Below are positions 51,927-64,000 of a stretch of 64,000 nt of DNA, piece by piece. This stretch comes from Winogradskyella eckloniae (GTDB taxonomy: Bacteria > Bacteroidota > Bacteroidia > Flavobacteriales > Flavobacteriaceae). The notes under the pieces are model-generated. The model saw only the letters and a list, made by a program, of their open reading frames with translations. It ran no database searches and was not told where the DNA came from. The position numbers and the translations under genes were made by a program. Where the stretch lies: NCBI RefSeq assembly GCF_013249045.1, contig NZ_JABRWP010000003.1, positions 1 through 64,000 on the forward strand, in the 5' to 3' direction. Numbering within the stretch: the first letter of the stretch is position 1; every line of letters starts with the position of its first letter.

Positions 51927-54900
51927 ATGATATTCAACGAAGACTCTAGAGTTAAAATACCATCCATTTTACATTTAATTCAATTAGGTTATACTTACCT
52001 TTCATTAAAAGACAGTATTTGGGATGAAAATACAAATATCTTTACTGATATTTTTAAAGAACGTATTGAAAAGATAAATTCCTATTTATCAGAAAAGGAT
52101 ATCCAAAAAGTATACGATGATATTTCTATATCCTTGGAAAATGAAGATTTAGGACGAGCTTTTTACAATAAGCTCATAGATCAATCAGGAGTTAAACTTA
52201 TAGACTTTGAGAATTTTGATAATAATTCATTCCATGTTGTAACCGAGTTACCATACAACAAAGACGACGAAAGCTTTAGACCAGATATTATTCTTTTAAT
52301 AAACGGAATGCCATTGGTTTTTATAGAAGTTAAAAAACCGAATAATAGAAATGGTGTTCAAGATGAACATAGACGAATGCAAAGGCGCTTTCAGAACAAG
52401 AAGTTCAGAAAGTTTGTCAACCTAACTCAGCTCATGGTGTTTTCAAATAACATGGCATATAGTGAGGAGGATACGCAAATGTTAGAAGGTGCTTTTTATA
52501 GTACAACAAATTATAAAAAACCAATCTTCAATTATTTTAGAGAAGAAGAAACCTTTGATTTAAACAAGCTACTTCAACCACTTACAGGGGAAGATGAAAA
52601 TTATGTTTTAAAAGACACCAACCTTCTAAGTATAAAAAGCAATAAAGAATACCAATCTAATAAAAGCCCAAATACAGCGACCAATTCTATTTCTACGTCT
52701 TTATTTCAGAGAGAGCGTTTAAAATTCATTCTACGTTATGCTTTTGCTTATGTAGAAGAAGAAAATGGACTAGAAAAACACATTATGCGTTATCCACAAC
52801 TGTTTGCTACTAAAGCGATAGAGAACAAGTTGGAAAACGGTATTAAAAAAGGAATCATTTGGCATACACAAGGTTCTGGTAAAACGGCTTTAGCATATTT
52901 TAATGTAAAACACCTCACGCATTATTTTCAAAAGCATAATATCATACCAAAGTTCTATTTTATTGTAGATAGATTAGATTTATTAGCCCAAGCAGCAAAG
53001 GAATTTACAGCTCGTGGTTTAGTAGTGCATAAAGTAGATTCTAGAGAGGTATTTAGTCGCGACATTAAATCGACAAGCGTTTTGCACAACAGTTCTGGTA
53101 AGCCGGAAATTACAGTTGTAAATATCCAGAAGTTTAAAGATGATCCTGATGTTATTAAAAACAACGATTACAATCTGAGTGTACAACGTGTTTTCTTTTT
53201 AGACGAAGTACATCGTAGTTATAACCCTAAAGGTAGCTTTTTAGCCAATTTAGAATTGGCAGATAAGCATTCCATCAAAATAGGACTAACAGGTACACCT
53301 TTACTAGGTTCAGAATATAACTCTAGAACGCTATTTGGCGATTATATTCATAAATACTATTACAACCTATCTATTAAAGATGGTTACACTTTACGATTAA
53401 TCCGTGAAGAAATTGAAACCAATTACAAGCTTGTACTACAAGAAGCACTCGAAAACATTAAAGTATTACAAGGTAATATTGATAAAAAGAAACTCTATGC
53501 AGACCATAGATTTGTAGAACCTATGCTAGACTATATTGTTAAAGATATGGAACAAGCTAGAATCTCTATGAACGATTATAGCATTGGCGGTATGGTAGTT
53601 TGTGATTCTTCTGATCAAGCTAAAATGATGCAAGAGATTTTTGACGATAAGTATGCTGATAAGTCTGATACATTATTTGATCAAGCAGCAGAAGAACCTG
53701 CTAGTTATGGCAACAAGAAAAAAGAAGAAAGCAAAGTAAACAAAGCACAGGTTATTTTACATGATATTGGCACCAAACAAGACAGAAGAGATTGGGTGTC
53801 CGATTTTAAAGTTGGAAAGCTCGATTTTCTATTTGTTTATAATATGCTATTAACTGGTTTTGATGCCAAACGCTTAAAGAAACTCTATATAGGAAGAAAG
53901 ATAAAATCGCATAACCTACTGCAAACATTGACTCGTGTTAATAGAACCTACAAAACGCATAAATACGGTTATGTAGTTGATTTTGCAGATATACAGAAAG
54001 AGTTCGATAAAACCAATCAAGATTACTTTAATGAGCTGCAAAGTGAGTTAGGAGATGAAATGCAACATTATTCTAATCTGTTTAAAAAGCCTGAAGAGAT
54101 AAAAGAAGAGATTGAAGAAATAAAGGATGTTTTATTCAAATTTGACACGCATAATAAAGAGGTTTTTACTCAGCAAATTTCAGAAATAAACGAACGTTCC
54201 GAAATTCGTCAAATTGCTAAAGTCCTAAACAATTCAAAAGAATTATATAACCTCATTCGTTTGTCTGGTAATTTTGAATTACTCGAAAAATTAGATTTTA
54301 GAAAACTATCTGTTTTAGCACGATTAACTAACGATAGGTTAGCCCTAATAAACACAAGAATTGCTTTAGAAAACAATGTAGATACCGATAACATTTTAAA
54401 CACAGCTTTAGAAGATGTCATTTTTGCTTTTACCAAAGTGAAAGAAGAAGAAATGATATTGGCAGACGAACTGAAAAACACCTTAGGTAATACAAGAGAA
54501 ATGTTAGCAGGAAACTTCGACCAGAAAGATCCTATCTTTATTTCTTTACGTGAGGAGTTAGAACGTTTGTTTAAAAAGAAGAATTTAAGCGAAGTCACTA
54601 AAGAAGAAATGGAAGCGAACATAACAGCTTTAAACGAAATCTATGACAAAGCCAAAAAGCTAGAACGTGAAAACCAATTACTGAAAGCTAAATACGATTA
54701 CGATGCTAAATATGCACGTATTCATAAACGTTTAATGGAAAAAGACCCATTAACCGATAGCGAACGCAAACTGTTTGACGCCTTAATAGGATTAAAAACA
54801 GCAGTAGATAAAGAGATTTTGCAAAACTCTAAGTTATTAGAAAACGAGAGTTATGTAGAAAAAATGATGATGCGTTTAGTTGTTAGCCAATTTAAAAAAG

Positions 54901-54995
54901 AACAAAAAATTGACATTAATACAACTGATGTAAGACGCATTAATAGCCTTATAGTAAAAGAATACATGAACGAATACAACGGTTACGTTGCTTAA
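51927..54995 (+). CDS. hsdR: Type I restriction endonuclease subunit R
   Basis: The 1022-residue protein is the motor and nuclease of a type I restriction enzyme. The N-terminal PD-(D/E)xK nuclease reads RPDIILLINGMPLVFIEVKK (about 118-137). The SF2 translocase has Walker A TQGSGKTALAYF (about 312), FFLDEVHRS (DEAH-like, about 428), GLTGTPLLG and later LLTGFDAKRLKKLYI and TLTRVNRTYK. The long helical C-terminus (about 700-1022) binds the HsdMS core. It cuts unmodified DNA far from the target. It is first in the operon. Confidence 0.95.
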   Translation: MIFNEDSRVKIPSILHLIQLGYTYLSLKDSIWDENTNIFTDIFKERIEKINSYLSEKDIQKVYDDISISLENEDLGRAFYNKLIDQSGVKLIDFENFDNNSFHVVTELPYNKDDESFRPDIILLINGMPLVFIEVKKPNNRNGVQDEHRRMQRRFQNKKFRKFVNLTQLMVFSNNMAYSEEDTQMLEGAFYSTTNYKKPIFNYFREEETFDLNKLLQPLTGEDENYVLKDTNLLSIKSNKEYQSNKSPNTATNSISTSLFQRERLKFILRYAFAYVEEENGLEKHIMRYPQLFATKAIENKLENGIKKGIIWHTQGSGKTALAYFNVKHLTHYFQKHNIIPKFYFIVDRLDLLAQAAKEFTARGLVVHKVDSREVFSRDIKSTSVLHNSSGKPEITVVNIQKFKDDPDVIKNNDYNLSVQRVFFLDEVHRSYNPKGSFLANLELADKHSIKIGLTGTPLLGSEYNSRTLFGDYIHKYYYNLSIKDGYTLRLIREEIETNYKLVLQEALENIKVLQGNIDKKKLYADHRFVEPMLDYIVKDMEQARISMNDYSIGGMVVCDSSDQAKMMQEIFDDKYADKSDTLFDQAAEEPASYGNKKKEESKVNKAQVILHDIGTKQDRRDWVSDFKVGKLDFLFVYNMLLTGFDAKRLKKLYIGRKIKSHNLLQTLTRVNRTYKTHKYGYVVDFADIQKEFDKTNQDYFNELQSELGDEMQHYSNLFKKPEEIKEEIEEIKDVLFKFDTHNKEVFTQQISEINERSEIRQIAKVLNNSKELYNLIRLSGNFELLEKLDFRKLSVLARLTNDRLALINTRIALENNVDTDNILNTALEDVIFAFTKVKEEEMILADELKNTLGNTREMLAGNFDQKDPIFISLREELERLFKKKNLSEVTKEEMEANITALNEIYDKAKKLERENQLLKAKYDYDAKYARIHKRLMEKDPLTDSERKLFDALIGLKTAVDKEILQNSKLLENESYVEKMMMRLVVSQFKKEQKIDINTTDVRRINSLIVKEYMNEYNGYVA

Positions 54996-55049
54996 TAGAA
55001 GTTAAAATATTAATTGTCGCAAAATATACGACAGTTCAAAAAAAAGTAA

Positions 55050-56039
55050 ATGAGTAAGGATAGTCAAATAGTAATCTATCAAGATAAAGATTCTGGTATT
55101 ACAATAGATGTAAAACTAGAAGGAGAAACTATTTGGCTAGACCAATATCAACTTGAAGCGCTGTTTGATACCGATAGAACTTCTATTGGTCGTCATTTAA
55201 GAAATATATATAGTTCTAATGAATTAGATAAAGAGGCAACTAGTGCAAAAATTGCACAAGTTCAACAAGAAGGGGAAAGAGAAGTTAAAAGGACAATAAA
55301 TGTTTATAATCTTGATGCAATTCTTTCCGTAGGTTATAGGGTAAATTCTAAAAAAGGAACTGCTTTTAGAAAATGGGCAAATGCTATTTTAAAAGATTAT
55401 TTAGTTAAAGGCTATGCGCTTAATGAAAAACGATTAGCACAAAAAGAACAAGAAGTAAAGCTACTAAAAGACGGGATTCATATTTTAACTAGAACAGTAA
55501 GCAAAGCTATTGAAGAAAAGGCTTCAGACAATATAATTTTAGAAACCTTTGCTAAAGGCTTAAGCTTGTTAGATGATTATGATCATGAAGAATTAGATGC
55601 TAAAGGACTAACAACAACAGAAGCTAGTTACCCTAGTTTAGACGATTATCAGGAGATAATTAATCAAATGCTAACGGAGTTTGATTCTGATGTCTTTGGA
55701 AAAGAAAAAGATAAAAGCTTCCAGAGTTCTGTGGCACAAATAGCAAAAGGATTTGGAGACGACGATTTTTACCCAAGCATAGAAGAAAAGGCAACCATGC
55801 TTCTATATTTAGTAGTTAAAAATCACTCATTTGTAGATGGCAACAAACGTATAGCTGCTGCTTGTTTTTTAAAGTTTTTGCAACAAAACAATATGTTGTT
55901 TAATAGTGAGCAACAACCCATAATTAGTAACGATACCTTAGCCAGTTTAACGCTGTTTATAGCATCTAGCAAACCAGACGAAATGCAAACCGTAACACGT
56001 TTGGTAATTAGTGTATTAAACAGAAATAACAGCAATTAA
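55050..56039 (+). CDS. RhuM-family / Fic-domain fusion protein within the hsd operon
   Basis: The 329-residue protein has an N-terminal RhuM domain (about 1-130: ETIWLDQYQLEALFDTDRTS and IGRHLRNIYSSNELD, NVYNLDAILSVGYRVNSKKG), a linker helix, and a C-terminal Fic/Doc domain (about 190-320) with NHSFVDGNKRIAAA. This is the Fic motif HxFxDGNKR with the catalytic His; the last motif residue is Lys-Arg, as in Doc, rather than Gly-Arg. Fic enzymes modify proteins with AMP or phosphate. The gene separates hsdR from hsdM, in the same transcript. It may be a toxin or regulator of the RM complex. Confidence 0.88.
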   Translation: MSKDSQIVIYQDKDSGITIDVKLEGETIWLDQYQLEALFDTDRTSIGRHLRNIYSSNELDKEATSAKIAQVQQEGEREVKRTINVYNLDAILSVGYRVNSKKGTAFRKWANAILKDYLVKGYALNEKRLAQKEQEVKLLKDGIHILTRTVSKAIEEKASDNIILETFAKGLSLLDDYDHEELDAKGLTTTEASYPSLDDYQEIINQMLTEFDSDVFGKEKDKSFQSSVAQIAKGFGDDDFYPSIEEKATMLLYLVVKNHSFVDGNKRIAAACFLKFLQQNNMLFNSEQQPIISNDTLASLTLFIASSKPDEMQTVTRLVISVLNRNNSN

Positions 56040-56058
56040 ATAAGAGAGATTAAATATA

Positions 56059-57684
56059 ATGACAAGTACCACACAATTTGAAACCCAAACCAAAGCACTT
56101 ATAGACGACCTAAAAAGCGTCTGTGCCAATTACGGTTTAGGAAATGACGGCAACGAATTTAAAATAATAACCCAAGTATTTTTATATAAATTCTTAAACG
56201 ATAAATACGTTTACGAACTAAAACAACTAGAACCCGAATTAGCAAAAGCCGAAAACTTTGACGATGCACTTAAAACGTATTCTGAGGACGATTTAGAAAT
56301 GCTAACCATGCAAATAAGCGAAAATACCGCACGCATCGCTCCTAAAAACCTATTGTCGCGTTTGTTTGAGCAACAAAACAAAGACAATTTCGCTGCCATT
56401 TTCGATGAAACCTTAGTTAGCGTAGCTAAAGATAATATCGCTATTTTCTCGGTACTTACACAAGGTGGCGAAAAAGTAGTATTGTTCGAAAACCTAAGTA
56501 AATATGTTACCGATAAAAAAGATGATTTCTGCAAAGCCTTAATAAACAAGCTAACCACATTTAGTTTTGAACACATATTCACGCAAAAATTCGATTTTTT
56601 TGCTACTATTTTCGAGTATTTAATAAAAGATTACAATACCAATTCTGGAGGTAAATACGCCGAGTATTTTACACCACACGCTGTAGCCAAAATTATGGCT
56701 GCTTGTTTGGTTACAGGAGACAATGTAAACAACGTAACCTGTTACGACCCAAGTGCAGGTTCGGGAACCTTGTTAATGAATATTGCACACGCCATTGGCG
56801 AAGATAAGTGTACCATTTACTCGCAAGACATCTCGCAAAAATCGTCTGCCTTATTGCGTTTAAACCTTATTTTAAACAATCTGGTACATTCCATACAAAA
56901 CATTATACAAGGCAATACTATTTTAAGTCCGTATCACAAACAAGACAACGGACAGTTAGAACAGTTTGATTATATAGTGTCCAACCCACCATTTAAGTTA
57001 GATTTTAGCGATTACAGTGCAGATTTAGACAGCAAAGCCAATAAAGAACGCTTTTTTGCAGGCATACCCAATATTCCTAAAAGCAAGAAAGACTCTATGG
57101 CTATTTACTTGCTATTTATACAACACATTATGCACAGCTTAACCCCAAAAGGAAAAGCGGCTATTGTAGTACCTACAGGTTTTATAACTGCACAATCTGG
57201 TATCGATAAAAAAATTAGACAAAAACTAGTAGAAAGTAAAATGCTAGCAGGTGTAGTGTCTATGCCTTCTAATATTTTTGCAACTACAGGAACCAACGTT
57301 AGTATTTTGTTTTTAGATAAAACCAATATAAAAGATGTGGTGTTGGTAGATGCCTCTAATTTAGGAACCAAAGTAAAAGAAGGTAAAAACCAAAAAACCG
57401 TTTTAAGCGAAGCCGAGGAACAACAAATTATAAATGTGTTTAATGCGAAAGAAGCCAAAGACGATTTTTCTGTTGTGGTGTCTTACGACGATATAAAAGC
57501 CAAAAATTACAGCCTAAGTGCAGGACAATATTTTGAAGTTAAAATAGAATACATAGATATTACTGCGGAAGAGTTTGCAGCTAAAATGAATGGGTTTGAA
57601 AGCAATTTAGAAAGCCTATTTGTCGAATCTAAAAGTTTAGAAAAGGAGATCCAAATGAACTTAAAGAGTTTAAAGTATGATTAA
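56059..57684 (+). CDS. hsdM: Type I restriction-modification DNA methyltransferase subunit M
   Basis: The 541-residue N6-adenine methyltransferase has the HsdM_N helical domain (about 1-160), the SAM-binding motif I DPSAGSGTLLMNIAH (about 232-246) and the catalytic NPPF (in YIVSNPPFKLDF, about 311). It methylates host DNA at the site read by HsdS and is also needed for restriction. Length and motif order are normal. It overlaps hsdS by 8 bases. Confidence 0.95.
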   Translation: MTSTTQFETQTKALIDDLKSVCANYGLGNDGNEFKIITQVFLYKFLNDKYVYELKQLEPELAKAENFDDALKTYSEDDLEMLTMQISENTARIAPKNLLSRLFEQQNKDNFAAIFDETLVSVAKDNIAIFSVLTQGGEKVVLFENLSKYVTDKKDDFCKALINKLTTFSFEHIFTQKFDFFATIFEYLIKDYNTNSGGKYAEYFTPHAVAKIMAACLVTGDNVNNVTCYDPSAGSGTLLMNIAHAIGEDKCTIYSQDISQKSSALLRLNLILNNLVHSIQNIIQGNTILSPYHKQDNGQLEQFDYIVSNPPFKLDFSDYSADLDSKANKERFFAGIPNIPKSKKDSMAIYLLFIQHIMHSLTPKGKAAIVVPTGFITAQSGIDKKIRQKLVESKMLAGVVSMPSNIFATTGTNVSILFLDKTNIKDVVLVDASNLGTKVKEGKNQKTVLSEAEEQQIINVFNAKEAKDDFSVVVSYDDIKAKNYSLSAGQYFEVKIEYIDITAEEFAAKMNGFESNLESLFVESKSLEKEIQMNLKSLKYD

Positions 57685-58969
57685 TGATACTATTACTTTA
57701 GGAGAAATTAGCTTTGTTACGAAATTGGCAGGTTTTGAACATACCAAATATATACAACATAACGCTACACATGAAGTTAATGATGTTCCTTTAGTTATAG
57801 GAAAAAATGTCAAAGACGGAAAAGTAAGATATGTTTTTGATTGGTATATTCCAATAGAAATTTCAGATGCTTTACCAAGAAGCGTGTTAGACAAGCAATG
57901 TCTTGTAATTCCTTATGTTGGAAGTAAGTTAGGAGAGCTAGCTGTTTTTAGAAACGATTTCAAATGTCATTTAGGAAGCAATGTGGCTAAGGTAGAGCTA
58001 CTAGATGATACTTTAGATATACATTATCTTTATTATTATTTATCGAGTAAATACGGTCAATTACAACTCTTTAAAGGTAAACAGGGCTCTGCTCAACCAA
58101 ACATAACAATGACTTCAATTAGAGAAACTGTTGTTGTTAAGTTTGAAAAAAGTATTCAAAAACAAATAGCCAAAGTCCTTTCCGATTTAGATGCCAAAAT
58201 AGAAGTCAACAACAAAATAAACCAAGAGTTAGAAGCCATGGCAAAAACGCTTTACGATTATTGGTTTGTACAGTTCGATTTTCCTGATGCTAATGGTAAA
58301 CCTTATAAATCGTCTGGTGGCAAAATGGTTTTTAATGAAGTGTTGAAACGTGAGATTCCTGAGGGTTGGGATGTCAAAGAACTGGAATTTTGCGCAGATT
58401 TTAAAAACGGAAAAGGAATGAAAAAGAATCTTCTAGATGATAATGGAGAGTTTCCTGTTTTTGGTTCAAATGGAATTGTTGGAAAAACAGATAAATTCCT
58501 ATTTGATAAACCTGTTATAGCAATTGGTAGAGTAGGTGCAAATTATGGGGAAGTACATTATTCAATTGATTCATGTTGGATTACTGATAACGCTGTTACG
58601 TCCCAACCGAAAAAAAATGAATATTTGTGGTGGCTATTATTAGCGTTAAAAGGGATTAATTATTCCAAGATTGCTGGTGGTTCTGCACAGCCACTTATTA
58701 CACAAGGAAAATTAAAAGCCTTAAATTTTGCAATACCAAGTAGTGATTTATTCCAAAATTTTCATCAGATAATTAATCCAATTTATATAAAAATCAACAA
58801 TGTTCTTAAACAAAACCAAAAACTCTCAGAGCTTAGAGATTGGTTGTTGCCTATGTTAATGAATGGGCAGGTGCGCATAGCGCATTCCCATGCAGATGGG
58901 AATCTTGGTGAGGTGGAGCAAGAGTTGGGTATGGTGGCTGAGGGTAATGAATCTTATAAAACGAAATAA
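57677..58969 (+). CDS. hsdS: Type I restriction-modification specificity subunit S
   Basis: The 430-residue protein has two target-recognition domains (about 1-150 and 230-385), each ended by a conserved helix: QKQIAKVLSDLDAKIEVNNK after the first and KQNQKLSELRDWLLPMLMNG after the second. Together they read a bipartite DNA site; the sequence does not tell which. The last 30 residues (RIAHSHADGNLGEVEQELGM) are unusual and are encoded in part by a REP-like palindrome (58,884-58,903). The ATPase gene follows after 3 bp. Confidence 0.93.
   Translation: MINDTITLGEISFVTKLAGFEHTKYIQHNATHEVNDVPLVIGKNVKDGKVRYVFDWYIPIEISDALPRSVLDKQCLVIPYVGSKLGELAVFRNDFKCHLGSNVAKVELLDDTLDIHYLYYYLSSKYGQLQLFKGKQGSAQPNITMTSIRETVVVKFEKSIQKQIAKVLSDLDAKIEVNNKINQELEAMAKTLYDYWFVQFDFPDANGKPYKSSGGKMVFNEVLKREIPEGWDVKELEFCADFKNGKGMKKNLLDDNGEFPVFGSNGIVGKTDKFLFDKPVIAIGRVGANYGEVHYSIDSCWITDNAVTSQPKKNEYLWWLLLALKGINYSKIAGGSAQPLITQGKLKALNFAIPSSDLFQNFHQIINPIYIKINNVLKQNQKLSELRDWLLPMLMNGQVRIAHSHADGNLGEVEQELGMVAEGNESYKTK
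58884..58903. repeat. REP-like palindrome inside the 3' end of hsdS
   Basis: ATTCCCAT (58,884-58,891), loop GCAG, ATGGGAAT (58,896-58,903), followed by CT, has the same frame as the groES-groEL palindrome (ATTCC...GGAATCT) with different but paired inner bases. It is read as coding sequence (HSHADGN). A second small palindrome, TGCGC-ATA-GCGCA, lies just before it. Confidence 0.5.
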
Positions 58970-58972
58970 CAA

Positions 58973-60925
58973 ATGTATTTAGCTTCTATTTACCTAGAAA
59001 ACCACAATTTATTTGATAAGCCACAAACAATAAATTTTGGAGGAAGGTTTATTTATGATTTCTCAAATATTCTTGGAATTACTAGAAAACAAAATAAAAG
59101 TTTTATAGAGAATTTTTATTCCGTTGATAATTTAGAATTAGTATCCGCTATTGTTGGAAAAAATGGTACAGGTAAAACTACATTATTAAGAGACTTAATT
59201 GATTTTTTAAAAGGAAAAGGATATGGTTATAATTTTATCTTGTTTTTAGAAAAAGGGAGTTCAACGTACACCGTTAGTTCATCAATGGTATTTGGTTGTG
59301 ATTTTATTGAAAGTTCTATAGACCTAAGTTTTGATACTTTATATTACTCACCATATTTAGACTTTAAAGAACCACTAAACGGAATTGATTTAAGTTATGA
59401 TACAATTTTAGAAGAAGATTTTGAAGCTTCTAAAGGTAAGTTTTTAGGTAGTGAAGACATAAATCCTAAACGTTGGTTGAAATCTCAGAACTCTTTGAGA
59501 ATACTTGAATTTCAGTCTTCTGAATATGCTTTAGGATTGAAAAGTTTTTTTGACTTTCCAGAAATTGAGCGTTCAAGAATTTCATTTATACGATACAAAA
59601 TTGATGTAGATAATTCAAATGATAAAATTCAATTCCATAACACACCTATGGATTTGCAATATTCATTACAACCTTTATATAATTTAATTAGTAAAGAAAG
59701 AACAACTATTAATCAGAATAGATATGAAGGTTATAGCTTGGTTGAGCTTCAGAAAAATTTGTTTAAGAATAATTTAATTATGGATGTGATTTGTATGCTG
59801 ATTAAGCAAATGGAAAAGACTAATCAGTATTTACAAGAGGGATTTCTTGAAATCAATTCAAAAGAATTTAATGAGTTAATCGAAAATTTGGATTCAAGAG
59901 AAGCCCTATTTAAATTTCTTGAACTTCACTATTTTAAAATAGGAGTTAATAAATCTCAAATTTTACCTATTGAAGAGACTAAAGACATGGTCAATTATTT
60001 ATTTGATTTAATTGATAATTTAGAAGCTGAAAATGATAGAGATACCAGGAATTTTGATTGGAGTTATAAATCTATTTATTTGAATCTTGAACAAACAAGA
60101 AGATTAATTGAATATCATACTCGATTCTTAAATAAAGTAGATCAATATTATGGAGGTATAGAAGATACAAATGGAAAAGTTTTATTTAAAAAGAGTGAGC
60201 GTATAGAAGGATTAGTCAATTATGAACCTTCTGAGAGAGATTTGAGTTCTGGTGAAACAGCTTTGTTAAATTTTTATTCTCGAATTTATTATTATTTCAA
60301 AAAGCAATTAATAGATTTAGAAAGTATAGAAAAGAAAGATTTCTATATCATCTTATTAGATGAAGCCGATATGGGTTATCATCCAAAATGGAAAAAATCT
60401 TTTGTTAAATCCATTGTCTCTTTTTTGCCGAAGTTTTTTAAAACTTTGGAAGCAGATATTCAAATTATATTTACTACTCACGATCCGTTAACACTATCTG
60501 ACATACCAAAGAATAATGTAACTTATCTTTCTAAGAAAGATAGTGGAGAAACCTATATACTTAATACGGATGAGGTTTGTCATAAAAAAACTTTTGGCGC
60601 AAATATTCACGATCTTCTTGCAGACAGTTTCTTTTTAGAAGATGGCTTCATGGGTGAATTTGCTGAAGAAGTAATTACAGATTTAGTTAACTATTTAACT
60701 TTTGACGTCGAAGAGGAAATTTCGGCCGAGAATGTTAAAAATATTAAAGAATGGAATGAGAAAAAGGCTAAAAAATTAATTGGGATTATAGATGAGCCCT
60801 TAATAAAGGAGAGAGTCCAATCATTATTTAATAAAAAGTTTCTGTATAATGACAAAGATTTGTTGCGATTGAAAATCAAAGAGTTGGAGGGTCAATTAAA
60901 AAAAATAAGTAATGAGGAGGATTAA
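58973..60925 (+). CDS. RecF/SMC-like AAA ATPase, Septu PtuA-like
   Basis: The 650-residue protein has an ABC-type ATPase split by a long helical insert: Walker A GKNGTGKTTLL (62-72), signature LSSGETALLNF (about 423), Walker B IILLDEADMGYHP (about 461-473) and switch His in IIFTTHDPLTLSD (about 502). No TOPRIM nuclease domain is present, so it is not an OLD protein. Such ATPases paired with an HNH nuclease make the Septu (PtuAB) anti-phage system and similar retron effectors. It starts 3 bp after hsdS and overlaps the HNH gene by 14 bases, so the pair is translationally coupled. Confidence 0.88.
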   Translation: MYLASIYLENHNLFDKPQTINFGGRFIYDFSNILGITRKQNKSFIENFYSVDNLELVSAIVGKNGTGKTTLLRDLIDFLKGKGYGYNFILFLEKGSSTYTVSSSMVFGCDFIESSIDLSFDTLYYSPYLDFKEPLNGIDLSYDTILEEDFEASKGKFLGSEDINPKRWLKSQNSLRILEFQSSEYALGLKSFFDFPEIERSRISFIRYKIDVDNSNDKIQFHNTPMDLQYSLQPLYNLISKERTTINQNRYEGYSLVELQKNLFKNNLIMDVICMLIKQMEKTNQYLQEGFLEINSKEFNELIENLDSREALFKFLELHYFKIGVNKSQILPIEETKDMVNYLFDLIDNLEAENDRDTRNFDWSYKSIYLNLEQTRRLIEYHTRFLNKVDQYYGGIEDTNGKVLFKKSERIEGLVNYEPSERDLSSGETALLNFYSRIYYYFKKQLIDLESIEKKDFYIILLDEADMGYHPKWKKSFVKSIVSFLPKFFKTLEADIQIIFTTHDPLTLSDIPKNNVTYLSKKDSGETYILNTDEVCHKKTFGANIHDLLADSFFLEDGFMGEFAEEVITDLVNYLTFDVEEEISAENVKNIKEWNEKKAKKLIGIIDEPLIKERVQSLFNKKFLYNDKDLLRLKIKELEGQLKKISNEED

Positions 60926-61901
60926 AGTAACAAACGAGTTGCAAAATGAGGTTGAGATTTTTAATAAAAATCTTTTCATAGAAAAGAGAGACAAGTCTTT
61001 TGAGTTGCCCATTGATAGATTAAGAAAATTAAGAAATAAAAGGTCTCATAAATATAAAACTTATGTAAAGAATATCATTTTAAATTATGAAGATTTGCTA
61101 AATGCAAATCCAATTGAAATGAAAACTTTTATAACGAAGTTTAATAAAATATTAAAGCCTCATGAATTGGAAAAAAAAATAGGTTCATCTAAGATTAGTT
61201 TTCATGAGGAAGTTGTTAGGGCAATGAGATATGAAGATTTGAGAAGCAAAGAATTTCCAAACTATTTATTGAACTCAAATTTAAAAACATGTGTTTATTG
61301 TAATGCTCAGTCGACCTTAGTTATTGAAAAGAAATTCTATGACAAAAAAAAGCGAAGAGTAAAACAAATTTTAGCGAAACTTCAATTAGATCATTATTAC
61401 CCGAAGTCGAAATATCCCTTCTTGTGTACTTCTTTTTTTAATCTTTATCCAACTTGTGCCAATTGTAATTTAGCTAAAGGGAGTAAAGAGGCTTTGTTTG
61501 AACTATATACCACAACTAATGATTTAGATTTATTTAATTTCAAAATTGATGATAAATCAATAATAAAATATTTAGTCAAGTGTGAATTAAAGCATCTAAA
61601 AGTGGATTTAGAATCGACTACAGGGGATTCTAATTTACTTAAAAATCATAATGAGTTGTTTCAAATTGAAGCGGTGTATGGAAGTCATGTTGATGTTGCA
61701 GAAGAACTTGTATTAAAAGCAAAAGCAAACCCACAAACTTATAGAAGTATGCTTGAAAAAAGCTACTCAAAACTTTTTCCCGATCCGACAATAATAGATC
61801 GACTATTGGTTGGGAATTATACAAAAGCAGAAGAACTAGGAAAGAGGCCAATGGCGAAGTATACTCAGGATATAGCTAGGCAATTGAAATTGATTAAATA
61901 A
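60912..61901 (+). CDS. HNH endonuclease, Septu PtuB-like
   Basis: The 329-residue protein carries an HNH nuclease core in the middle: KTCVYCNAQST (CxxC, about 126-129), LQLDHYYPKSKYPFL (catalytic His, about 158-172) and FFNLYPTCANCNLAKGS (Asn and second CxxC, about 175-191). Flanking helical regions of about 120 residues each make it longer than a typical PtuB. It is presumably held inactive by the ATPase and released on infection to cut DNA or RNA. It overlaps the ATPase gene and is followed after 3 bp by the 525-residue gene. Confidence 0.88.
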   Translation: MRRIKVTNELQNEVEIFNKNLFIEKRDKSFELPIDRLRKLRNKRSHKYKTYVKNIILNYEDLLNANPIEMKTFITKFNKILKPHELEKKIGSSKISFHEEVVRAMRYEDLRSKEFPNYLLNSNLKTCVYCNAQSTLVIEKKFYDKKKRRVKQILAKLQLDHYYPKSKYPFLCTSFFNLYPTCANCNLAKGSKEALFELYTTTNDLDLFNFKIDDKSIIKYLVKCELKHLKVDLESTTGDSNLLKNHNELFQIEAVYGSHVDVAEELVLKAKANPQTYRSMLEKSYSKLFPDPTIIDRLLVGNYTKAEELGKRPMAKYTQDIARQLKLIK

Positions 61902-61904
61902 CTT

Positions 61905-63482
61905 ATGAGTATAATCCAATTACAAACTAATCAAGTTAAAGCACCTTATTTAGGTAAACCGCATTATCCCATTACAGGTCTAGATCAATTAGGTTTAAAC
62001 ATTACAAGTGAGCGTATCTTTGAATGTCTACTTCCAGGACTTAATAATGTAACACAACGTATTCGTTATTATTCGTTTTATAGTTGGTTTTTTCAATGGT
62101 ATGCTGCACATATTGGTAGCACATCTGTGAAACAACAAAACAGTTATTTAAGGCGTGCAGAATTTATATTAGCACTTATTTCAGCGCATAACCAAAAAGG
62201 TGGTGTGCCAGGTATTACAAAAGCACAGCATATCTATGAAATTTCAGACGAGGTTATAGAATTAAAGAAGGGGACACAAGAAGGGGATACTAGTGTCGGT
62301 TCATATTGGAATAACAGTCGTGGCGTGCTTGGTCAGTATTATATTAGTTCAGTAAAGCAATTAGGGATTTTGGCAGATCAAGGCTCTATTAACGGTTTGT
62401 ATATTCGTACTGATTTTGAGAATAAGACCAAAGTGTCAGGAAAAAAATTGGCTGATGCCTTTATAGAGAATACAGCGTCCAATCTTCCTGTTTTTATTAA
62501 AGCTATAGAAGATAATAGTATTTCTAAGTTAGCTTTAAATGACTTAAAAACGGATTTCGATATGCAACTTATTCCTAATAATAGCAATGAACAAAAATTA
62601 TTCTGGCAATTGTTTTCTGGTGTTGATAACCCAAAACTTAAAATAGATACTTTTTATAGAAAAGAAACTATAAAATTGGTGTTGCAAAGTTTTAATGATG
62701 CCGATAACAACCAAAAGTATAATCAACTCCATGTACCTTTTTCTCTATATGATAAGCAATGGGATTTGCTAAGCACAACGACTGAGAAATTATGGTATTT
62801 GTATATGATGGAGCAATTTTGGAGTGTTGCCTGTACAAGTGCTCTTGATATTTTTTTATTAATACTTAAAGACGAATCTCATGATAATTGGATAGATGAA
62901 ACAAAACTTGTTGACGGAATAATTAAGAAACTTGATGCTGTATTTGAATCTGAAAGTATGCAGCCTAAGCAAGATTTGTTTATTACAGAGCAGTTTATGG
63001 GTTTTTCGGTTCCTCAATTAATTGAATCAGCTCGTAAAGAGGAGGATCTGTTTGACAGATTGGGCTTTGTACTTTATGCAATTCAGAAGCTGTATTTAGA
63101 GAATTGGCTACATTATAAAAGTATTTTAGAGTTTGCTAACACTTTTAATATGCATTCAGCAAGTAGTTTTATCGTTTCAATGGCAGATATTGAATCTAAA
63201 AAACAATTAACCATTTCAGATTTTAGTCATTACTTTTTAACCCGTTACATCATTAATAGGCATTATTATGTAGCTTTAAGGAAATTGAGTGCAACTCAAA
63301 ATAGTGCTAAGTTTTACAGAGAAGAAGGACAGATACGCTATGTAGATAAATTTATATATGGATATTCATCGCCTAGAATACACACTCTTGTTGATTTTTT
63401 AAAAGACCTTAATCTTATCCATAAAGATAAAACGGAACTTACCGAACTTGGTCAGCTAAAACTAGAAGCTTTATCTATATGA
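61905..63482 (+). CDS. Unrecognised 525-residue protein in the defence operon
   Basis: The protein begins MSIIQLQTNQVKAPYLGKPH and contains LNNVTQRIRYYSFYSWFFQW (about 46-65), TEKLWYLYMMEQFWSVACTS (about 288-307) and a C-terminal winged-helix-like end (RIHTLVDFLKDLNLIHKDKT, ELTELGQLKLEAL). It is largely helical, rich in aromatic residues, without signal peptide or membrane segment and without nuclease or ATPase motifs that I can see. Its stop overlaps the next start (ATGA), so it acts with the phospholipase-D-type protein. I cannot assign it to a family. Confidence 0.8.
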   Translation: MSIIQLQTNQVKAPYLGKPHYPITGLDQLGLNITSERIFECLLPGLNNVTQRIRYYSFYSWFFQWYAAHIGSTSVKQQNSYLRRAEFILALISAHNQKGGVPGITKAQHIYEISDEVIELKKGTQEGDTSVGSYWNNSRGVLGQYYISSVKQLGILADQGSINGLYIRTDFENKTKVSGKKLADAFIENTASNLPVFIKAIEDNSISKLALNDLKTDFDMQLIPNNSNEQKLFWQLFSGVDNPKLKIDTFYRKETIKLVLQSFNDADNNQKYNQLHVPFSLYDKQWDLLSTTTEKLWYLYMMEQFWSVACTSALDIFLLILKDESHDNWIDETKLVDGIIKKLDAVFESESMQPKQDLFITEQFMGFSVPQLIESARKEEDLFDRLGFVLYAIQKLYLENWLHYKSILEFANTFNMHSASSFIVSMADIESKKQLTISDFSHYFLTRYIINRHYYVALRKLSATQNSAKFYREEGQIRYVDKFIYGYSSPRIHTLVDFLKDLNLIHKDKTELTELGQLKLEALSI

Positions 63483-64000
63483 TTATTGAAAGAGCTAATA
63501 TTCTAGAACTAATAGGTACTGGTAAAAACAAATATCATAGTTGTGTAATAACCAGTTATAGTATGGATTTGTCGTTTTTTGAGCATTTGGTTTTACCCAA
63601 ACTAAAAGCAGCAGGAGTTACTAATATTAATGTATTTGTAGATGCGGCAATGCTTGAGAAATATTTAGGTTCACATACGGCTTATAATCATATAAATTAT
63701 AAAGTTAATTACAGTATTACACCAATGGATAAGTCAGGTGCTTTTCACCCAAAAATGATGTTTCTAGCGGGTAAGACTAGGGGGTATTTATCTATAGGTA
63801 GTGGTAATATAACATCCAGTGGAATGCTCTATAATGACGAAATATGGGCTTCATTTTATTTAGCTAATGATAAGTTAAAAGCACAGCCCATATTTAAACA
63901 AGCATGGAATTACATCCAAGATTTTGTAATACACAGTCATAGTATTAATAGAACTAAGATACAATGGATAGAACAGCATGCTAAATGGATACAGTCACTT
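63479..64000 (+). CDS. Phospholipase-D-type nuclease, N-terminal part (cut by window end)
   Basis: From ATG 63,479 (overlapping the upstream stop as ATGA) the frame runs open to the window end, 174 codons. It has a PLD/HKD half-motif: AFHPKMMFLAGKTRGYLSIG (HxK at about 91-93) with SGNITSSGM carrying the Asn that follows in this superfamily. Proteins of this group act as nucleases (drmC, BfiI, Nuc) or are fused to helicases. The second HKD motif and any further domain are outside the window. The coupling with the 525-residue gene suggests a two- or three-gene defence unit. Confidence 0.82.
   Translation, partial: MIIERANILELIGTGKNKYHSCVITSYSMDLSFFEHLVLPKLKAAGVTNINVFVDAAMLEKYLGSHTAYNHINYKVNYSITPMDKSGAFHPKMMFLAGKTRGYLSIGSGNITSSGMLYNDEIWASFYLANDKLKAQPIFKQAWNYIQDFVIHSHSINRTKIQWIEQHAKWIQSL

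Follow-up and report, generated by a model that had tools for sequence, protein, structure and literature searches.

The stretch of Winogradskyella eckloniae DNA analysed here (64,000 nucleotides, positions 1 to 64,000 of contig NZ_JABRWP010000003.1, referred to as the window) ends with two overlapping genes, A and B, which form a tight, co-diverging pair. As judged by profile comparison, the pair is a divergent, helicase-free module related to Azaca, and hence a variant of a known system type; it seems to be a member of a wider group that joins DPLG/ZacA proteins with PLD nucleases. We favour, with modest confidence, the reading that the two genes specify an anti-invader nuclease of two components, which is distantly related to the ZacA-ZacB core and works without ZacC. 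The defence role is probable from the genomic context. A sequence-only reading of the window had regarded the two genes as a candidate new defence unit. The conserved two-gene unit in the neighbourhood of defence genes has stood, while its independence from every described system has given way to the matches with ZacA and ZacB reported below.

The two genes overlap as ATGA, as had been read from the sequence, and only the first 174 codons of B lie inside the window (Table 1). The contig (510276 bp) extends past the window, and B could be read there to its end at contig position 66172. The complete protein has 897 amino acids, and its second half-site (H282, K284, N302, N317, E319) lies past the window end. 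A helicase had been suggested as a third gene beyond the window. None follows B on the contig read past the window; its place is taken by approximately 595 bases without any ORF of at least 80 amino acids, a terminator-like hairpin (contig 66767-66791, 11 pairs and a T run; three such sites were observed in the region, where chance alone would give 2.4) and, beyond the hairpin, a Fic gene convergent with A and B (contig 67069-68178). The Fic-like protein shares 31% identity with a Fic ORF of locus L027. It is encoded in addition to the RhuM-Fic fusion upstream. Further downstream, a protein of 1594 amino acids with several near-identical long repeats is encoded at contig 71683-76467. The genes hsdR, the RhuM-Fic gene, hsdM, hsdS, an AAA ATPase gene and an HNH protein gene are located 5′ of A on the same strand. 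The RhuM-Fic fusion (55050-56039; PADLOC PDC-S23, E 3.6e-127) is absent between hsdR and hsdM of the Lacinutrix locus L004. Composition and tRNA scans were uninformative.

Table 1. Positions of the A-B pair and its parts in the window.
Feature	Position	Strand	Basis
Gene A, 525 aa; helical, with ZacA-like N-terminal block and winged-helix-like C-terminus; proposed recognition/control subunit	61905..63482	+	ORF
Block shared with ZacA/DUF6361, A residues 23-106 (GLDxLG...LLPG...RYY..Y.W)	61971..62222	+	hhalign, PADLOC ZacA
Winged-helix-like C-terminal end, A residues 492-523	63378..63473	+	L012 HTH_45 match at equivalent residues 478-510; model helices
Gene B, PLD-family nuclease, proposed effector	63479..64000 in window; whole gene contig 63479-66172	+	ORF, PLDc_2
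First PLD half-site of B (H90, K92, N110, N119, E121)	63746..63841	+	invariant in 22/22 relatives

Relatives of A occur in distant bacteria. The named genome collection, where the scan reaches close relatives only, yielded a single one in Lacinutrix algicola (84% identity). A search of a sample of 395 genomes of the same phylum, taken to be Bacteroidota, gave seven genomes with A. One of these, G385, was dropped as doubtful, its partial match (E 1.2e-4) lying within a protein of 1119 amino acids. Twelve of 72,556 plasmid records carry A, the carriers belonging to Myroides, Prevotella, Sphingobium, Roseovarius, Polaromonas, Sphingopyxis and Undibacterium. Nine of the twelve were used; H2, H3 and H6 were left out, their identity, coverage and bit score being equal to those of H1, H1 and H5, respectively. 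A tblastn search of A against 50,697 phage records found nothing. Six usable contigs with the pair were obtained from IMG/VR, and four of them were checked for phage genes; structural or integrase genes were present in all four (portal, capsid, terminase, integrase and tail genes adjoin the pair in L027, L028, L035 and L036). The contigs L040 and L041, in which the A match spans only 60 and 36 residues, were dropped, and L034, L037, L038, L039 and L042 were left out as second copies of contigs already counted. Bacteroidota and both Alpha- and Betaproteobacteria are represented among the 22 loci kept, as are plasmids and prophage-like contigs.

B overlaps the end of A in all 22 loci. The overlap ranges from 1 to 38 bases, the latter value resting on a TTG start, and is exactly the four-base ATGA in 14 loci. 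Family profiles detected full-length A and full-length B in an identical set of six of the 395 genomes, the recovery of these six being by construction, as the profiles were partly built from them. No full-length solo A or solo B was detected by these profiles among the 395 genomes, and three further genomes gave partial PLD matches only. Between A and B, the correlation of pairwise divergence is 0.975 over the 22 pairs and 0.954 over the 18 pairs that remain without near-copies; none of 5000 permutations reached a correlation as high. The possibility that these are chance ORFs was rejected on account of their conservation and pairing far beyond the source genome.

The PLD active-site motif noticed in the second gene was confirmed by the Pfam PLDc_2 match in the whole B protein (E 2.5e-11), with two HxK/GSxN half-sites. 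The residues H90, K92, N110, N119 and E121 of the first half-site and their five counterparts in the second are invariant in the 22 proteins. B has the two-lobed make-up of a PLD nuclease, and neither half-site is damaged. For the Lacinutrix B protein, the structural model has a mean pLDDT of 52.6; averages over blocks of ten residues range from 41 to 87 as far as residue ~450 and for the most part lie under 50 beyond it. A Foldseek search of the PDB with this model retrieved PLD3 (6e-9), TDP1 (1e-8), SauUSI (7e-6) and the NgoAVII R protein (6e-4). The alignments with PLD3 and TDP1 span ~390 columns and are loose, with TM-scores to the target of 0.43-0.45 and an rmsd of 7.6-7.7 Å; over the best rows in general these values are about 0.4-0.5 and about 7-8 Å. 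The profile search of B against solved structures gave no usable relative (best E 0.062). SauUSI is a known PLD restriction nuclease. By analogy with such enzymes, DNA may be regarded as the likeliest target of B.

The alignment of the A family comprises 22 members and has 16 invariant positions, among them R54, Y55, W61, R83, E229, R252, H453, K460 and R491. The aromatic block RYYSFYSWFFQWY, which had been described as conserved-looking, is among the best-conserved parts of the protein; three of the 16 invariant residues, R54, Y55 and W61, fall within its positions 54-61. The searches of Pfam (E <= 10), of NCBIfam (E <= 1) and of PHROGs (E <= 1e-4) assigned A to no family, and its PADLOC match is a partial ZacA match only. 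The AlphaFold2 model of A (pLDDT 76, pTM 0.76) is almost wholly helical and ends in the helices 492-501 and 514-524. The winged-helix-like end proposed earlier has gained support: besides these helices, the C-terminus of the A protein of L012 exceeds the cut-off of Pfam HTH_45 (26.1 bits against 25.5), but the other nine A relatives of the same Pfam scan gave no match. Structural searches with the A model remained weak. The best Foldseek hit had an E value of 0.03, none lay at or below 0.001, and Z did not exceed 5.6 in VIA. Most of the rows retrieved were transporters or 14-3-3 proteins, and chains of Wadjet JetABC appeared at Z 4.2-4.3; the scores are too weak for any of these to be taken as structural kin of A. 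The best match among profiles of solved structures, an anti-apoptotic membrane protein (E 0.0065, residues 303-430), was judged unusable. A has no convincing solved relative among the structures searched with its model, and we do not claim a new fold from that.

The pair is enriched near defence genes. Recognised or candidate defence genes are present in 14 of the 22 loci. Type I R-M genes account for nine of them within the stretch available (the window, L004, L011, L012, L014, L020, L022, L024 and L029; in L024 and L029 they were identified by BLAST or by eye only). The remaining neighbours are the DrmD-like helicase of L013, the Zorya system of L015, AbiEii in the near-copies L018 and L019 and an Hhe/PDC-S37 protein in L023. 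In the other eight loci, several of which are cut contigs or prophage-like, no defence gene was found by annotation, BLAST or scans of a few proteins. HsdR is encoded within 10 kb of the pair in four of the five genome-sampled loci whose contig exceeds 5 kb, or in three of four when the window's own locus is left aside. The background is ~1% per point (HSDR_N has 94 matches over the 181 Mb of the 41 listed genomes with at least one), which gives probabilities of about 6e-8 and 4e-6, respectively.

The relationship to Azaca was found at the level of both proteins. Zac stands for Azaca, which consists of a DUF6361 protein (ZacA), a PLD protein (ZacB) and a helicase (ZacC). Azaca is reported to have anti-phage activity, in work by Millman in 2022. 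The order ZacA, PLD, helicase holds in seven of seven loci, one in G076 and the others on six plasmids that were picked out of 45 with a ZacA match. ZacA is annotated by NCBI as 'DUF6361 family protein', and in the locus L047 it is annotated as three pieces. A passage of a 2026 review lists Azaca among the systems of unknown mechanism (PMC12926258), and a PLD-like domain is listed for Azaca and Mokosh in an excerpt of another article (PMC10952713). Among the window proteins, PADLOC ZacB matches B with an E value of 6e-14 and ZacA matches residues 26-107 of A with 1.9e-4, covering 82 of the 396 model positions. Over the first 16 family members, every one of the B proteins gave a ZacB match at E <= 0.01 (the strongest at 5.7e-18), and 13 of the 16 A proteins matched ZacA at E <= 0.1 (the strongest at 1.5e-5). 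With hhalign, B aligns to ZacB over 299 columns (probability 99.1, pairwise E 7e-19), and A aligns to ZacA over 82 columns, restricted to A residues 23-106 (probability 90.9, pairwise E 1.1e-6). Pfam DUF6361 did not match A at E <= 10 and was found in two of 16 A relatives at E <= 1 (best 0.07); in one of these two the match reaches 12.5 bits against a cut-off of 25 and covers residues 24-108 only.

No ZacC-like ORF of at least 200 amino acids was found in the 22 pair loci except the DrmD-like SNF2 helicase upstream in L013, which scores 45 bits on the ZacC profile compared with 1284-1550 bits for the seven sequences that built it. This search reached at least 4.3 kb after B in 20 of the 22 loci, 765 bases in L021 and 0 in L027. 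In two loci the gene after B encodes a helicase of another kind, which is HsdR in L011 and DpdF-like in L022; the latter could possibly serve the pair there as an alternative motor. This DpdF-like helicase of 1376 amino acids (L022:14655-18785) directly follows B and has a DUF559-like segment below the Pfam cut-off. Of the features of Azaca, the pair has the ZacB-like PLD protein, and has neither a ZacA that is a DUF6361 protein over its length nor a ZacC directly after B; it was not filed as Azaca. The PADLOC and profile comparison proposed as a check on novelty gave weak, consistent matches to ZacA and ZacB.

We propose the following route for the two-component anti-invader nuclease. A would bind B and hold it inactive. 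The helical body of A and its winged helix would recognise the DNA of an invader or else a DNA state that infection brings about, and only upon this recognition would B be released to cut the DNA through a metal-independent PLD active site. Having no helicase of its own, the pair would act on DNA that is already exposed or borrow a translocase of the host island. Against the recognition step stand the lack of a convincing fold match for A and the C-terminal half of B, which is modelled mostly at pLDDT <50. The proposal is also weakened by the short span of the homology of A to ZacA, the loose Foldseek fits of B, the eight loci without a recognised defence gene, the winged-helix match in a single scanned relative and the tree of the PLD part described below.

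The type I R-M genes in nine of the loci fit another reading, which we consider rather unlikely: that the pair is a type I R-M accessory within the hsd operon and acts through the R-M system or guards it. It could, for example, be a back-up triggered when phage anti-restriction proteins hit HsdRMS, or use HsdR as the missing translocase. A precedent for a back-up triggered by anti-restriction is PrrC/Ecoprr. The R-M genes are found upstream of the pair on the same strand in six loci (the window, L004, L012, L020, L022 and L029), and they flank it on the Myroides plasmid, where HsdM, HsdS, A, B and HsdR are encoded on one strand with the pair between hsdS and hsdR (L011:8650-17335). The comparison with Lacinutrix L004 is also in line with an accessory role, as HsdR (90% identity), HsdM (92%), A (84%) and B (73.5%) are much alike in the two genomes, and HsdS (42%), the ATPase (33%) and the HNH protein (30%) between them are not. 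The association with hsd genes is not constant, however, and because 13 of the 22 loci show no type I R-M (they include Zorya-linked, prophage-like and isolated pairs, some on short stretches), the R-M system is seemingly unneeded. The Lacinutrix comparison bears equally on the ATPase and HNH genes, which overlap each other at 58973-61901 and match Septu-like PDC-M62A (E 9e-68) and PDC-M62B (E 6e-43). Their tight one-strand spacing with A and B in the window, their presence near the pair in L004 and these PADLOC matches would suit a system in which all four proteins act together. We regard such a system as very improbable. Relative to Lacinutrix algicola, in which hsdR and hsdM are about 90% identical, the ATPase and HNH genes are diverged or exchanged, and L004 has one extra gene between HNH and A. 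Among 14 loci screened by BLAST, M62-like genes occur only in the window's genome and L004, and the annotation of nine plasmid loci has no ATPase and HNH pair before A. Since their identities of 33% and 30% contrast with 84% and 73.5% for A and B, the two genes look like a separate, exchangeable module.

Two further readings concern what the pair itself is. It could be a true Azaca system, degenerate or split, with ZacC lost or located elsewhere in the genome, as the weak homology of A to ZacA and the clear homology of B to ZacB would allow. We think this improbable: apart from the L013 helicase no ZacC-like ORF was found near the 22 pairs, 20 of which were covered for at least 4.3 kb after B, A and B are longer than ZacA and ZacB, and both genes are intact over a wide divergence and are therefore not decaying. 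The overlap and co-divergence of A and B would also fit a non-defence nuclease pair, and this weighs against the anti-invader reading. Such a pair would serve the stability of a mobile element or be toxin-antitoxin-like, with the nuclease as the toxin. Plasmid and prophage-like carriage and the AbiEii genes beside two closely related copies agree with it, but both proteins are large and the pairs cluster with R-M systems, so that we judge a non-defence function to be quite improbable.

The anti-invader nuclease remains the preferred reading, and a more far-reaching version of it can be put forward as a speculation. The pair might be the smallest self-sufficient form of a superfamily of 'DPLG protein + PLD nuclease' systems that includes Azaca. 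A would then be an undescribed sensor of invader DNA that licenses the nuclease without an ATP-driven motor, and in several lineages the pair would have docked into type I R-M operons, where HsdR would give the motor or its failure would be the trigger. A relative that has no helicase and stays stable across wide divergence allows the roles of the components to be told apart, with A and B seemingly acting without need of ZacC. With only two genes, it lends itself to bench tests of how a PLD nuclease is kept safe and released. The 22 pairs can be used as a basis for building family models, A having no NCBIfam or Pfam match. No title or abstract among the literature matches listed describes the A-B pair, the scope of that search leaving most subscription papers outside.

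Compared with known systems, the PLD nucleases of DISARM (DrmC), Dpd (DpdK), SauUSI and NgoAVII share the PLD nuclease domain with B but have other partner proteins. PADLOC DrmC matches B only weakly. The PADLOC families shown for the eight proteins at 51927-64000, at most 25, include neither DrmA nor DrmB, and DrmB (DUF1998) had no Pfam match in the eight window proteins scanned. The Septu-like PDC-M62A/B genes are located immediately upstream of A on the same strand, but have no reported similarity to A or B. Closer relatives are two three-gene operons, L064:4021-10392 (G002) and L065:5108-11282 (G132), which are two of the three loci reached through partial B matches. In G036, no A-like or ZacC-like neighbour of the PLD match was found. 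Both operons begin with the gene of a short DPLG-signature protein, followed by genes for a PLD protein and a helicase resembling ZacC, and are possibly unnamed branches of Azaca. They resemble the pair in the B-like PLD domain (64 and 71 bits), in a first protein with weak likeness to A (16.4 and 7.9 bits) and in the gene order. They differ from it in the short first protein (379 and 434 aa) and in the helicase, which is kept (66 and 67 bits on ZacC). An unrooted tree built from the PLD part places ZacB, L064 and L065 together, beside the branch of the proteobacterial pairs (support 0.944); it is compatible both with a single clade of helicase-free pairs and with more than one. Azaca proper shares with the pair the order of A and B, in overlapping or adjacent genes, the homology of the PLD half of B to ZacB over ~300 columns and that of the N-terminal ~80 of the 525 residues of A to ZacA, and also the location beside R-M genes and on plasmids. 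It is distinguished by the ZacC helicase gene directly after ZacB, by a ZacA of 388-422 amino acids compared with 504-553 (as aligned) for A, and by a ZacB of 486-622 compared with 776-938 for B. Past the N-terminal block, A shows no detected similarity to ZacA and instead has its winged-helix-like end.
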